IMG/VR virus record: IMGVR_UViG_3300043446_000327
Span: 1 to 27,102 of that record
DNA: 27,102 bases
Origin: a virus
Direction: 5' to 3' (one strand)
The translations under genes were made by a program, and so were the position numbers. Shown in pieces: positions 13,745 through 18,230 of this stretch. A model generated the notes under the pieces. That model saw nothing but the letters and a program-made list of their open reading frames with translations, searched no databases and was not told where the DNA came from. The number at the start of each line of letters is the position of its first letter. Position 1 is the stretch's first letter.

Positions 13745-13750
13745 CTCCTT
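13745..13750 (-). promoter_or_regulatory. Ribosome-binding site of the holin gene
   Basis: AAGGAG on the minus strand, overlapping the TAA stop of the upstream gene. Spacing of five bases to the ATG at 13739 (against two to the GTG at 13742) favours the ATG. A paired GTG-ATG start could still give two holin forms. Confidence 0.6.
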
Positions 13751-14054
13751 ATTGTCCGTACATCCGTTCAATCTGTATCTCTTTGCGTAGCTCTCGCATC
13801 TTCCTGACTTCATGCACCGCTGCTTGGGTTGCGTAATACATGTCGTAGTACATAAAAGCTAACACCGGCATCACAATAAAAAACATCAGTAGCACAGCCA
13901 GCACTACCACGATAAGTGACCAAGGTACGTCCTCTGGATTGCGCTTCTCGTTGTCAGCCACATTAGAAACCCCGCCCAAATTACTACGAAAATTACTGCC
14001 AAACCCCACACCGCTTTTGCCCTGAGTTCCGCTATTTTTCTTTTGCGTCGCCAT
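13749..14054 (-). CDS. Small single-TM protein upstream of the lysis cassette
   Basis: A 101-residue product if the ATG at 14054 is used. It then overlaps the C-terminal 151 nt of the previous gene in another frame. Residues 1-43 are polar; residues about 45-69 form one strong membrane segment (SLIVVVLAVLLMFFIVMPVL); the end is charged (EVRKMRELRKEIQIERMYGQ). No clear ribosome-binding site stands before the ATG. A GTG at 13961 (residue 32) has a GC-rich GGGCGGGG about eight bases upstream, and starting there would shorten the overlap to about 58 nt. It abuts the holin gene, so a lysis role (for example antiholin or pinholin) is possible, but nothing in the sequence proves it. Confidence 0.6.
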   Translation of the reverse strand: MATQKKNSGTQGKSGVGFGSNFRSNLGGVSNVADNEKRNPEDVPWSLIVVVLAVLLMFFIVMPVLAFMYYDMYYATQAAVHEVRKMRELRKEIQIERMYGQ

Positions 14055-14605
14055 CTTGCTATCTGAGCTAACCTCAGTTCCTCCGCGTGGGCTACCTCCT
14101 GTTCAGCGACTATGCGCTGCCACATCTCTTCAAACTTGCTCCACAGACTACCCAACTCCGGCGGGGCTTTGTACACCATCGTCTCTCGAATCTCTGCCAA
14201 CATCGCATCTAGCCTTGTCGTAATCAGAATCCGTCTTAACGCCCGTCGCCCGATACTCTCATCACCCCTGTACACTTGCTTGGCTTCTAGCTCTTCCTTC
14301 TGCAACGCCTTGTGGATTGCATCATAAGCATCCATCAACGTACCTAGCTGATTGCCTATGTCGGTATACACATCTGCCGGATCAGTCTTGGCTATTTCCT
14401 GCACACGCTGTACTTCCGCGTGGTACTGCTGTTTCTGCGCTGGAGTCGGGTTACCGCCTGTTACTTTGTCGTACTGCTCCTTTAAGTCTTTTAAAACACC
14501 GCTAACTTCACCTGCCGCACCTTTAATTTCTTTGTAAAGTTGGCATCCTTTCTTAACTGCGGCAACAGCAGCGTTAGCAGCGGCTAGAAGGGTGAGCGGG
14601 TCCAC
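13904..14605 (-). CDS. Coiled-coil, C-terminally membrane-anchored protein of unknown function
   Basis: A 233-residue product from a GTG at 14605. The N-terminus LTLLAAANAAVAAVKKGCQL then LYKEIKGAAGEVSGVLKDLK is an amphipathic helical start I have seen in proteins from environmental phages without assigned function. Residues 60-195 are charged and helical, with likely coiled coil (LGTLMDAYDAIHKALQKEEL, IVAEQEVAHAEELRLAQIAR). A basic stretch (WRRKRKIAELRAK) precedes a membrane segment at about 198-217 (WGLAVIFVVIWAGFLMWL). A short extra-membrane tail ends it. Adjacent to lysis genes and after the glycine-rich genes. It could be a membrane-associated lysis regulator or a virion-membrane link. 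Confidence 0.7.
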   Translation of the reverse strand: MDPLTLLAAANAAVAAVKKGCQLYKEIKGAAGEVSGVLKDLKEQYDKVTGGNPTPAQKQQYHAEVQRVQEIAKTDPADVYTDIGNQLGTLMDAYDAIHKALQKEELEAKQVYRGDESIGRRALRRILITTRLDAMLAEIRETMVYKAPPELGSLWSKFEEMWQRIVAEQEVAHAEELRLAQIARWRRKRKIAELRAKAVWGLAVIFVVIWAGFLMWLTTRSAIQRTYLGHLSW

Positions 14606-14612
14606 ATCCTAG

Positions 14613-15452
14613 TTACCACGACCAAATAAATACAGCACCATCACCGCCGCGACCACCAGCGCCGCCAATAGTTGTTCCTCTACCACCACCACCGCCGCCA
14701 CAGCCAGTGCCGCCGCTTCCGCCGCTTCCCCCAGCAGCCGTACTATTTCCACCGCCGCCAGAACCACCAACGCCAACCATTATTGGAGACGCAATAAAAT
14801 AACCAGCTACACCATTTCCACCCGTTATTCCAACTCCGCCAGAAATACTTGGGTAGCTGTAATTTGGGGCGTTAGAATATCCAGTGGTTCCTGTCGTTGA
14901 AGCTCCACTAGCGCCGCCAGTTAAAAAAATAGTTGCAGATCCGGTTTGGTTTGCGTTTCTTGTGCCATCTTGCCCCGCCGTTGAAGAAAATATTCCACAC
15001 GCGCCAAAAAAATTATTTGCAAAAACAACACCCCCAGCGCCAACAACAGTAGTAGCACTACCCCCTCCGCCACCATTTGCTGTTAATAACGTATAACCAG
15101 TACCATCTTTTTGTTGGTATATAACAGAACTATTACTACCACTCGCGCCTGCATTTGGCGTTGATGTTGATGATCCAGCGCCACCAGCGCCACCCGCTCC
15201 TAAAGACACGCGCAATATATCTGGAATAAAAATAGCTGGGCCTATCCACTCTGTAACAGCCCCCGAACCTCCCCCATTACAACCGCTTGTTGTGCCTACA
15301 CCACCACCAGAACCACCACCGCCAGCGCCAATCAATAACATCCTTACCATTGACGCGCCGCGAGGCTTGACCCAATCGCGTGTAGATCCGCCACCATAAA
15401 ATTCTTGGTAATTGCTTTGCTGCGGAGAAGGAAAATTGAATACGTCTAGCAT
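14613..15452 (-). CDS. Glycine-rich receptor-binding-like protein, third paralogue
   Basis: A 279-residue product, ATG at 15452. The N-terminus MLDVFNFPSPQQSNYQEFYG leads into RDWVKPRGASMVRMLLIGAG, the core shared with the two genes upstream. Then come long Gly-rich runs (for example GAGGAGGAGSS and GGSGGSGGTGCGGGGGGRG), GSGAVTEWIGPAIFIPDILR, a tail segment GYFIASPIMVGVGGSGGGG, and the end GGDGAVFIWSW. Dense glycine with short beta strands suggests polyglycine-II type packing, as in the gp38 adhesin of phage S16, or the Gly_rich_2-type domain of tail proteins. It is the last and most glycine-rich member. Probably tip adhesin; receptor unknown. Confidence 0.7.
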   Translation of the reverse strand: MLDVFNFPSPQQSNYQEFYGGGSTRDWVKPRGASMVRMLLIGAGGGGSGGGVGTTSGCNGGGSGAVTEWIGPAIFIPDILRVSLGAGGAGGAGSSTSTPNAGASGSNSSVIYQQKDGTGYTLLTANGGGGGSATTVVGAGGVVFANNFFGACGIFSSTAGQDGTRNANQTGSATIFLTGGASGASTTGTTGYSNAPNYSYPSISGGVGITGGNGVAGYFIASPIMVGVGGSGGGGNSTAAGGSGGSGGTGCGGGGGGRGTTIGGAGGRGGDGAVFIWSW

Positions 15453-15456
15453 CGCG

Positions 15457-16245
15457 TCACCATGTGATTATTACTACGAGGCCATCACCGCCTCTTGACC
15501 CGTAGGTGAGGTTGCCTGTACCACTACCCGTTCCACCACCACCACCACAACCAAAATGACTTGTACTGGTTCTAGATGGATTATTTGCTCCCGTAGAGGC
15601 AAAAGTAGATGTGGGCGCTCCAACGCCTACGATTATGGGCTGGAACTGAAAATAACCGTTCGTATTTTGCGGAACTGAGTAACCATAATTACTAGTCCGA
15701 GTCGATGTGGCATTCCCACCGCTAAGAAATGTCGTACCACTTACAGTATCAAGCGCTCCACTGTCACCGATCTGACCAGCCACCGACTGGAACAACCCCA
15801 TGCAGGAAAAATAATTAGATGCAGATGCAGCACCACCCGGGCCACCACTTCCGGCGGTTGATTGAACACCATTTGTACCTGATTTACCAGCTGATGCCTG
15901 CAATAATAAGTAGGTGGATTTTGACACGTAATTTACGGTCGTATCTGTGCCATCGGACGTCGCTGCACCTTGACCATCAATGCCGCCCCGTCCAACGGAA
16001 ACCTGAAGAACGTCTGGTATTAAAAACGCTGGAACCATACAATTCGTTACCGCGCCAGAACCGCCACCGCCACCGTCTGCCGTTCCGTTGCCAGCGCCAC
16101 GACCACCAGCGCCACCAGCGCCTATCAAAGTGAACCAAACAAACGACGCACCTTGGGGCTTGACCCAATCGGACGTTGCTCCGCCTACATTGAATATTTG
16201 GATGTTTGCGCCCTGCGGCGTTGGGTAATTTATTGGGTAGCTCAT
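15457..16245 (-). CDS. Glycine-rich receptor-binding-like protein, second paralogue
   Basis: A 262-residue product. I choose the ATG at 16245 (MSYPINYPTPQGAN), in a TAATATG junction; a TTG at 16260 would add five residues. It shares the core TSDWVKPQGASFVWFTLIGA, GSGAVTNCMVPAFLIPDVLQ, GYFQFQPIIVGVG and the end RGGDGLVVIITW with its neighbours. Glycine-rich loops (GAGGAGGRGAGNG, GCGGGGGTGSGTG) alternate with short strands. Central parts diverge strongly from the other two copies. Same likely role as its paralogues: an interchangeable tip that sees a surface receptor. Confidence 0.7.
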   Translation of the reverse strand: MSYPINYPTPQGANIQIFNVGGATSDWVKPQGASFVWFTLIGAGGAGGRGAGNGTADGGGGGSGAVTNCMVPAFLIPDVLQVSVGRGGIDGQGAATSDGTDTTVNYVSKSTYLLLQASAGKSGTNGVQSTAGSGGPGGAASASNYFSCMGLFQSVAGQIGDSGALDTVSGTTFLSGGNATSTRTSNYGYSVPQNTNGYFQFQPIIVGVGAPTSTFASTGANNPSRTSTSHFGCGGGGGTGSGTGNLTYGSRGGDGLVVIITW

Positions 16246-16246
16246 A

Positions 16247-16915
16247 TTACCAACTCGCAATCAATGCAAAACCGGGTCCACCCACAGTTGAGTTTCCTGA
16301 TCCTCCGCAACCTATAGCAGTGCGATCAGAGCTGTTGTCGCCAGAAGCTACACCTACAATAATTGGTTGAAAAATAAAATAACCTAATCTGGTACTACTC
16401 GTATAACCATAACCATAGTTTGCCGTCACTGTTGCAGTTGTAGTTCCCGAAGACAAAAAAGTTGTTGCCGATGGAGTTGCATTACCACTAACGCCAGCTA
16501 TACCATCCGTGCTTTTGTAAAAACCAGATGAGGCAAATGAAGTTGCAGGGGACAAATTGGCGCCGCTAGTGGAGCTCGATGAATTGGCAGTTAAAAGACT
16601 TACTAACCCACTAGATGACCTATATGCTACTACTGTCTCATAACCATTTGAATTAGCTCCGCGCACATAAATTGCCAATGAGTCAGGAACATTTTGCGCC
16701 GCCCCGTACCAAACGGTAACAGCTCCGCATCCACCACCAAAAGTTCCATTTCCGTTTCCACCCCCGCCAATTAAAAGCATATAAACATGGCTTACCCCGC
16801 GAGGTTTATTCCAAGTCATGTAATTTCTGTCGGTAATTGTGCCCTGATTTCCAAAACCATAAAAATTTTGAATATCACAATTCTGCGGCTTAGCGATGTT
16901 AAAGACATCAAGCAT
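16247..16915 (-). CDS. Glycine-rich receptor-binding-like protein, first paralogue
   Basis: A 222-residue product. The ATG at 16915 (MLDVFNIAKPQNC) has AGGAG about five bases upstream and is preferred to the upstream in-frame start at 16939. It shares MLDVFN with the third copy, and WNKPRGVSHVYMLLIGGGG, GCGAVTVWYGAAQNVPDSL, GYFIFQPIIVGVA and the end IASW with the group, but has fewer glycine runs and an extra loop near residues 20-35. It directly follows a 64-residue gene. Divergence from the other two suggests old duplication or import. Probable adhesin, same reasoning. Confidence 0.7.
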   Translation of the reverse strand: MLDVFNIAKPQNCDIQNFYGFGNQGTITDRNYMTWNKPRGVSHVYMLLIGGGGNGNGTFGGGCGAVTVWYGAAQNVPDSLAIYVRGANSNGYETVVAYRSSSGLVSLLTANSSSSTSGANLSPATSFASSGFYKSTDGIAGVSGNATPSATTFLSSGTTTATVTANYGYGYTSSTRLGYFIFQPIIVGVASGDNSSDRTAIGCGGSGNSTVGGPGFALIASW

Positions 16916-16917
16916 AT

Positions 16918-17112
16918 TTACTCCTGTGGCACATACCAACTAGGTGCGGCAGCGTTATCGTTTACGCAGGTGTACTCCACATTCTCTTCACCCAAAGGCG
17001 TACCGTCAGCACGATAAACGCCTATGTACGATCCTGACGAATCCAAATGCGCATATCCATCAGAACCGTCTGAGAACTGAAGCAAAAACCAGCTATCAGT
17101 ATCGCGCCACAT
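16918..17112 (-). CDS. Small aromatic-rich protein of unknown function
   Basis: A 64-residue product, ATG at 17112 in a TAATATG junction with the upstream stop. It is rich in Trp, Tyr, Asp and Ser: DTDSWFLLQFSDGSDGYAHL and IGVYRADGTPLGEENVEYTC. Tight packing between flanking genes and lack of a better frame support it as real. It may be a small fibre-linked or adhesin-chaperone protein, given that it precedes the glycine-rich genes. I do not recognise a family. Confidence 0.6.
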   Translation of the reverse strand: MWRDTDSWFLLQFSDGSDGYAHLDSSGSYIGVYRADGTPLGEENVEYTCVNDNAAAPSWYVPQE

Positions 17113-17113
17113 A

Positions 17114-17554
17114 TTAGTAGTCCCCTGCTACGCAAACGACCGAGTAACCAGTACCAGCCGAACCAGTCGATGTACCGAAGGTCACATACAGCAGATAGTT
17201 GGCGTTCAGCGCAAAGTTAATTGGCAGCTCAAACACTGAAGATGCCGCTGTCTGAGATAGCGTCACCGCAGGCAGTGTAATCTCGTCGTACAACCAAGTG
17301 TTCGTGGCATTAGTAGTTGTGCTGCTAGACACAAACACACGGCACACAGTCGCGGCAGGTGATCCTACAGGACGAAAGCGAATCTTCTGGATGTAGCTAC
17401 CATTAGCGCCTGCTGTGAATAGCTTGTAGATGTTCGCGCCTGTACCATCCAGTGCGGTGTTAGCGCTTGGGCCTACGATAAGACCCGTATTGTTTTGCGC
17501 TACCGATTGAACATCACCGGTAATCGAATAAATGGGGCTAGTATTTGCTGGCAT
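17114..17554 (-). CDS. Beta-rich accessory virion protein
   Basis: A 146-residue product from the ATG at 17554, with AAGGAG six bases upstream. It is rich in Thr, Ser, Ala, Asn and Gly: TSPIYSITGDVQSVAQNNTG, YIQKIRFRPVGSPAATVCRV, and LPINFALNANYLLYVTFGTS. The alternating hydrophobic pattern fits a small jelly-roll or beta sandwich. It follows fibre genes and precedes the glycine-rich genes, so it may decorate or cap the fibre. No family recognised. Confidence 0.6.
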   Translation of the reverse strand: MPANTSPIYSITGDVQSVAQNNTGLIVGPSANTALDGTGANIYKLFTAGANGSYIQKIRFRPVGSPAATVCRVFVSSSTTTNATNTWLYDEITLPAVTLSQTAASSVFELPINFALNANYLLYVTFGTSTGSAGTGYSVVCVAGDY

Positions 17555-17564
17555 AATTTACTCC

Positions 17565-18230
17565 TTAAGGAAGAATGCAGTTAATGGCGATGGCACGAAC
17601 CAAGCCGATTGAAGTTGATGAAGTGGCTGTGGCAGTAAGCGTTCCTGCTGCAAATGTTAAGCCAGTGCCAATCGTCACATTGCTAAACCCACCAGAACCA
17701 TTTCCATACAAAATTGAAGTGCCGGATGTGGCTGGTGCGTAATCAGTTCCTGATACTGCGGCAGAAATAGCCGTGCCGTTACCCTTTAGAACGCCCGTAA
17801 TTGAGGTACTAAGAGTGATTGCAGGGGTAGTAGTTGCGTTTGCAACCGAGCCTGCCAGACCATTTGCAGAAACTACAGAAACACTTGTGACCGTACCGCC
17901 GCTACCTGTTGCGGCAATTGTGATTGATCCACTGCCATTTGTAATGGAAACACCAGAGCCAGCAGTAAGTGTGGCTCTAGTAAACCCAGTGCCATTGCCA
18001 ATATCTAGCTGACCATTGGTTGGGGTACTGGTTAGTCCAGTCCCACCAGCGCTGACGGGAACCGTCTTCCAACCGATCACCTGCACCGCATTCGCGTTAT
18101 CCTTGTAAAACAGCTTTCCATCGGTAATGTTAATCGCCAATTCCCCACTGGCGAGGTTACCCGCAGTAGGTGCTGCCGCAGCCGTGGTGCTGTAGTACAG
18201 TGAAATGGGTGTGTAGCCTGCCTGTGCCAT
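17565..18230 (-). CDS. Fibre-like protein with common fibre modules
   Basis: A 221-residue product; its ATG overlaps the long fibre stop (TGATG). The N-terminus has NLASGELAINITDGKLFYKD, a module common in phage tail fibres. Then GGTGLTSTPTNGQLDIGNG, SVVSANGLAGSVANATTTPA and TGVLKGNGTAISAA, repeats seen in long fibre proteins. The end is LVRAIAINCILP. Its ribosome-binding site (GGAGGG) lies in the last codons of the long fibre. It is either a fibre segment or a partner protein binding the distal end. Confidence 0.7.
   Translation of the reverse strand: MAQAGYTPISLYYSTTAAAAPTAGNLASGELAINITDGKLFYKDNANAVQVIGWKTVPVSAGGTGLTSTPTNGQLDIGNGTGFTRATLTAGSGVSITNGSGSITIAATGSGGTVTSVSVVSANGLAGSVANATTTPAITLSTSITGVLKGNGTAISAAVSGTDYAPATSGTSILYGNGSGGFSNVTIGTGLTFAAGTLTATATSSTSIGLVRAIAINCILP

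Follow-up and report, generated by a model that had tools for sequence, protein, structure and literature searches.

Tandem glycine-rich tip genes in a fibre cassette of uncultured viruses probably encode a heterotrimeric receptor-binding tip

A glycine-rich sandwich is found at the fibre tip of Salmonella phage S16 in the adhesin gp38 (PDB 6F45), a monomer that sits on the gp37 trimer. In phage Pam3, gp24 is a homotrimeric fibre composed of a TNF-like and a glycine-rich domain, whose variable tip was proposed to bind the receptor (PMC9608196). Polyglycine domains of the Bxb1 type are associated with a central fibre and are presumed to contact lipid-rich layers of the cell wall (PMC13252515; PMC13243795). 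Heterotrimers made from three consecutive genes have also been described. The tail of virophage DSLV2 is such a heterotrimer as judged by co-purification, with subunits that form positional clades and have homotrimeric relatives in phages (PMC12724248), and cryo-EM of mycobacteriophage Mysterious, reported in a preprint, revealed a heterotrimer of gp35, gp36 and gp37 in the virion (PMC13252515). With these two systems published, the logic of building one heterotrimer from three genes is not new.

The window analysed here, a viral record of 27.1 kb with nearly all of its large ORFs on the minus strand, carries three adjacent tip genes on that strand, which we named A, B and C in transcription order. 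Tip protein A (16247..16915, 222 aa; alignment A2) is of the TNF-like plus glycine-rich type and is followed by B (15457..16245, 262 aa; alignment A3) and C (14613..15452, 279 aa; alignment A4), with 1 nt between the stop of A and the start of B and 4 nt between the stop of B and the start of C. For B, the ORF listing puts a TTG start upstream; the conserved start is the ATG of MSYPINYP. All three ORFs are intact and lie exactly where an earlier note on this DNA had seen three adjacent paralogues, at 14613-16915. Relative to C, identity is 49% for B and 44% for A. The core motifs that the note had described as shared (W-x-KP-x-G, LIG-x-GG, GAVT, P-D, GYF..PI.VGV and a terminal W) are all present in the alignment of A, B and C, and 51 positions are at least 80% conserved across the three families. 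Its statement that loops and glycine content differ strongly also holds, with 16, 22 and 29% Gly in A, B and C respectively. The gathering cut-off of Pfam Gly_rich_2 (PF21722; 24.3 bits) is passed by B (51.0 bits, 2.5e-13) and C (37.8 bits); A does not match this family, although it is homologous to B and C. Because one profile built from A, B and C together recovers the whole families, and because B and C pass Gly_rich_2, the likeness of the three proteins reflects homology and not shared composition.

IMG/VR scans led by C, B and A yielded 66 non-redundant locus groups; every relative in which the triad occurs is a contig of an uncultured virus. Where no contig end truncates the array, which is the case for 55 non-redundant loci, there are always exactly three copies in a fixed order; the 11 groups with fewer copies all stop about 100 nt or less from such an end. 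At least 700 nt remain on both flanks in 43 of the 55 three-copy loci, and contig ends therefore do not cap the number of copies there. A scan led by g146, a neighbouring protein described below, is independent of the tips, with many contigs common to both approaches; its best 80 loci included 55 with three copies and 14 that are cut, and every uncut array again held three. A tree built from 35 loci (105 proteins) placed the members of each position in a single clade (SH-aLRT 100 for A, 98 for B and 99 for C). Four of the 55 loci contained one copy that was best scored by the profile of another position (ACC or CBC patterns). Spacing is equally constrained: the A-B gap is -1 to 9 nt and the B-C gap 3-4 nt in all 55 loci, distances that would suit equimolar synthesis. 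On sequence grounds, A-B-C is an ancient fixed triad. Three such genes in series, which the earlier note had considered unusual, are thus the rule in this family, and a search for copy-number variants among the IMG/VR relatives found none in the clade. Beyond these contigs, a search of genome contigs with B retrieved no relative. A, B and C also had no tblastn match in 50,697 phage records, for B even at E 10, probably owing to low-complexity masking of glycine-rich stretches; g146 was used as the handle instead.

The triad stands at the end of a cassette that begins with a tagged fibre, followed by g146 and g64. In the window, the distal fibre protein (17565..18230, minus strand, 221 aa), which has PHROG long-tail-fibre matches, ends in the tag GLVRAIAINCILP, its last 13 residues (about 17568-17606, minus strand). 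The fibres that precede g146 elsewhere are very different in length and sequence, yet they always end in a tag of this kind, which occurs exactly once per locus in 49 loci, while the remaining six start downstream of it. Collagen-like GPTGPTG repeats in some fibres suggest a trimeric shaft; in two loci (L056 and L083) they lie directly before the conserved tag. The highly conserved g146 (17114..17554, minus strand, 146 aa) and the small conserved g64 between g146 and A (16918..17112, minus strand, 64 aa) each occur in 52 of the 55 loci. The three loci without g146 have no upstream DNA; g64 seems to be missing in L029 and is absent or unrecognised in most distant relatives. Mean pairwise identity is 84% for g146, versus 52% for A, 54% for B and 60% for C. 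It is probable that g146 is an adaptor joining the fibre end to the tips, and g64, for which no family match was found, may be a chaperone, a spacer or a fourth tip part. One tag and one g146 per cassette point to one docking point for three proteins.

The cassette is portable. Few of the 55 loci contain the adaptor, lysis and tail genes that also flank it in the window. When the window's own adaptor was compared with 16 longer carrier contigs, two had close relatives (66 and 85% identical), six matched in short pieces (26-38%) and eight gave none; g146 is about 73% or more identical in the carriers listed despite this divergence; the cassette has thus moved between distant phages. A contractile-sheath gene was not found in the 16 carrier contigs.

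AlphaFold2 models built with the family alignments were confident for both C (pLDDT 89, pTM 0.87) and A (pLDDT 86.8, pTM 0.86). Both N-termini consist of about 10 disordered residues followed by strands, with no helix. The glycine-rich part was also confidently modelled, and DSSP assigned hardly any of it to helix or sheet, which fits a stack of extended glycine strands. In a structure search, the best match of the C model was chain Q of the Bxb1 tail tip (PDB 9D93; Z 20.4, 205 residues); Pam3 gp24 (7YPX) matched with Z 17.2 over 200 residues (rmsd 2.8), and the TNF-like/glycine-rich domains of ALK and LTK with Z about 8-10. A weak match (Z 5.6) linked residues 172-272 of C to a springtail antifreeze protein of polyproline-II helices. 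S16 gp38, to which the earlier note had pointed, was absent among the reported structural matches of the C model, and the closest structural relatives found are instead Pam3 gp24 and the Bxb1 glycine-rich domain.

Like C, Pam3 gp24 (PDB 7YPX, 7YFW) has a TNF-like domain and then a glycine-rich distal domain, with a conserved stem and a hypervariable tip, and it is likewise the fibre end of an aquatic phage. It differs in being a homotrimer encoded by one gene, in its long helical domain at the N-terminus and in having gp25 as a Tfa-like chaperone; A-B-C, known from genes and single-chain models, comprises three genes whose products start with a short peptide, and a chaperone was not recognised. 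The Bxb1 domain belongs to a siphophage tail tip of mycobacteria; searches of PDB sequences with profiles of A+B+C, C and B gave no match to it and nothing else meaningful. The tripartite tail of DSLV2 (QIG59353-QIG59355) shares with A-B-C the three consecutive related genes, the positional clades and the homotrimeric phage relative, but its fold is unrelated, being a T4 gp37-like needle with a collar domain (PF07484) that has no match in A, B or C, and its bearer is a virophage and not a tailed phage. Mysterious gp35/gp36/gp37 resemble the proposed A:B:C complex as three consecutive gene products in a heterotrimer, but are baseplate accessory beta-sandwich proteins not described as glycine-rich.

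Sequence variation follows the modelled fold. Entropy is low in the strands and high in between (about 84-121, 126-149, 181-216 and 231-249 in C numbering), and the loop regions are unlike even between close relatives. The earlier note had named, as a finding that would speak against its reading, relatives that keep all three genes with no loop diversity; all three are indeed kept, but the loop diversity is large. Its prediction of a receptor-binding tip is backed by the fold, the genome slot and this hypervariability. Residues fixed in a paralogue-specific manner lie in the N-terminal peptide and the TNF-like strands, not in the loops: 11 of 18 fall in strands, which make up 19% of the protein. 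Examples are residues 35/37 (H,Y in A, F,W in B and M,R in C) and 275/277 (L,A, V,I and F,W respectively; C numbering). Residue 70 is a further position of this kind. The N-terminal peptides of the three proteins are homologous (P-x-PQ..N.Q.F) and have been swapped between positions, which suggests equivalent docking sites; the C proteins of L011, L012 and L042 start with the B-type MSYPINYPTPQ, and some A proteins, that of the window among them, with a C-like MLDVFN.

Comparisons of cassettes indicate that whole single genes are exchanged between them. Loci L028 and L006 have A in common (95% identity) but not B (61%) or C (62%); L051 and L095 share A (93%) and not B (47%); and L041 and L095 share C (92%) and not B (46%). 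In such swapped cassettes, DNA identity shifts at or near the gene borders. Tree distances of A, B and C correlate weakly (r 0.19-0.35), giving no sign of tight pairwise coevolution; as evidence for coevolution we rejected this correlation, which is weak and explained by reassortment.

More distant relatives of g146 carry other numbers of tips. In Rhodobacter phages such as RcOceanus, the fibre is followed by a g146 homologue (gp22) and then by one glycine-rich tip (gp23) that, in RcOceanus and its relatives, ends in GGRGGDGFVFI; both proteins are annotated as hypothetical, and the single tip gene sets this arrangement apart from A-B-C. In Pseudanabaena phage Pam2, the g146 homologue precedes a different protein that is not glycine-rich. 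This protein (UQS94934.1; L173:6372-7169) is annotated as 'botulinum neurotoxin type A', a name that looks like a misannotation because it reads as an ordinary lectin-like (LamG/ConA-type) domain. A g146 search of genome contigs detected 11 distant loci in MAGs, all of which lack the A-B-C set. Among complete non-redundant loci of distant g146 relatives, 14 had no tip, 28 had one, 14 had two and 36 had three; none had four or more. An apparent set of four, in L334, consists of three genes, the first of which is split by a frameshift into 151 and 202 aa (L334:1957-2936), reflecting decay or a sequencing error. Taking the mean of about 2.1 tips observed, a simple geometric model predicts roughly 11 loci with four or more, against none seen; the estimate is rough, as it leaves relatedness aside and as the query used to collect the distant loci was itself headed by a three-copy locus. 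On the poorly resolved g146 tree, tip number changes about 20 times. The triad proteins A, B and C group in a clade of their own, separate from the tips in these other g146 loci (support 98-99), and several of the distant two- and three-copy sets are separate duplications. Nearest neighbours within the same locus are rare, occurring in 5 of 37 distant three-copy loci, and a check of long ORFs revealed no two tips naturally fused into one protein.

Taken together, the single tag and g146, the close gene spacing, the clade formed by each position, the existence of a relative that trimerises and the upper limit of three tips lead us to favour a predicted A:B:C heterotrimer (1:1:1) as the tip of a trimeric fibre, with three specificity slots that can each be exchanged, an interpretation that we regard as probable; receptor binding, the trimeric fibre, docking on g146 and 1:1:1 assembly are what we infer. 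Here A, B and C would be paralogues derived from a single receptor-binding tip protein, each with its own specialisation. The shaft of the fibre would be a trimer; g146 would bind its C-terminal tag and, perhaps helped by g64, provide one pseudo-threefold platform for the short homologous N-terminal peptides of A, B and C. The TNF-like domains would pack as one heterotrimer, like the three gp24 chains in Pam3, which is in keeping with the position of the paralogue-specific residues in the N-terminal peptide and the TNF-like strands. The glycine-rich sandwiches would face away from the fibre and display three different hypervariable loop sets, each subunit serving as a specificity slot that can be exchanged on its own. 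The starting point may have been a single tip gene, as seen in the Rhodobacter phages, which was duplicated and diverged into three obligate subunits, and such an expansion may have occurred more than once, stopping at three. Of the two readings offered in the earlier note, this hetero-oligomeric tip is the better supported. The other, an adhesin array for wide or switchable host range in which copies are gained, lost or exchanged within the genome, would account for tandem paralogues with divergent loops, unlike even between close relatives, but is largely refuted, and we give it hardly any credence: count and order are invariant in the clade, the genes are intact except in cut loci, all frames are open, silent partial copies were not found, close in-locus neighbours are rare, and no invertase, reverse transcriptase or template repeat is present among the annotated genes of the window.

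Alternatively, A, B and C could be three separate homotrimeric receptor-binding proteins, each with its own fibre or place, that recognise three receptors or are used one per fibre at random and so give one phage several host specificities. Independent exchange and different loop sets are what one expects of separate adhesins, the Pam3 relative is a homotrimer, and loci with one or two tips exist; one or two tips suffice in many relatives, which itself speaks against an obligate A:B:C complex. Homotrimers with self-specific interfaces would leave identical paralogue-specific residues, and a heterotrimer that survives the swapping of single genes needs a generic interface. We nevertheless consider separate homotrimers unlikely, since each cassette whose contig extends that far has a single fibre tag and a single g146, the number and order of the genes and their positional clades do not vary, the position-swapped N-terminal peptides suggest equivalent docking sites, and the ceiling of three would be left unexplained, although that ceiling could have another cause. 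Another possibility, that A, B and C are not specific receptor-binding proteins but accessory ones with a structural or wall-binding role, for instance lipid-binding brush domains, would fit the best structural match, as the Bxb1 domain belongs to the presumed lipid-contacting polyglycine domains. This is very unlikely on genomic grounds: A-B-C lies at the end of the fibre genes, its loops are hypervariable around a fixed core, and the same stretch of the tail-related phage MW202545 has genes annotated as tail fibre and endo-N-acetylneuraminidase.

If the heterotrimer holds, one tip would show three different receptor-binding sites instead of three equal copies, and recombination could replace them singly, so that host range would change in a combinatorial way. 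Heterotrimeric tips would then be a recurrent phage solution with a testable rule, a copy number of at most three. As far as the literature was searched, novelty lies in the glycine-rich fold, in a portable cassette marked by a fibre tag, and in tip numbers that have repeatedly approached three. We see about an even chance for the broader proposal that tailed phages repeatedly turned a homotrimeric TNF-like/polyglycine tip into an obligate three-gene heterotrimer, capped at three because the fibre is a trimer, and that the tag-bearing cassette passes between distant phages and evolves as its three specificity subunits are reassorted into new combinations. The conserved tag itself offers a handle for finding such tips in unannotated phage genomes.

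Two smaller observations concern the third gene and its surroundings. In L065, the C ORF encodes 377 aa, about 100 residues above the usual length. Two minus-strand ORFs in different frames (13749-14054 and 13904-14605) come just after C in the window and share about 150 nt. The former contains a membrane-like segment, and the latter, of 233 aa, has a homologue in only four of the 55 loci.
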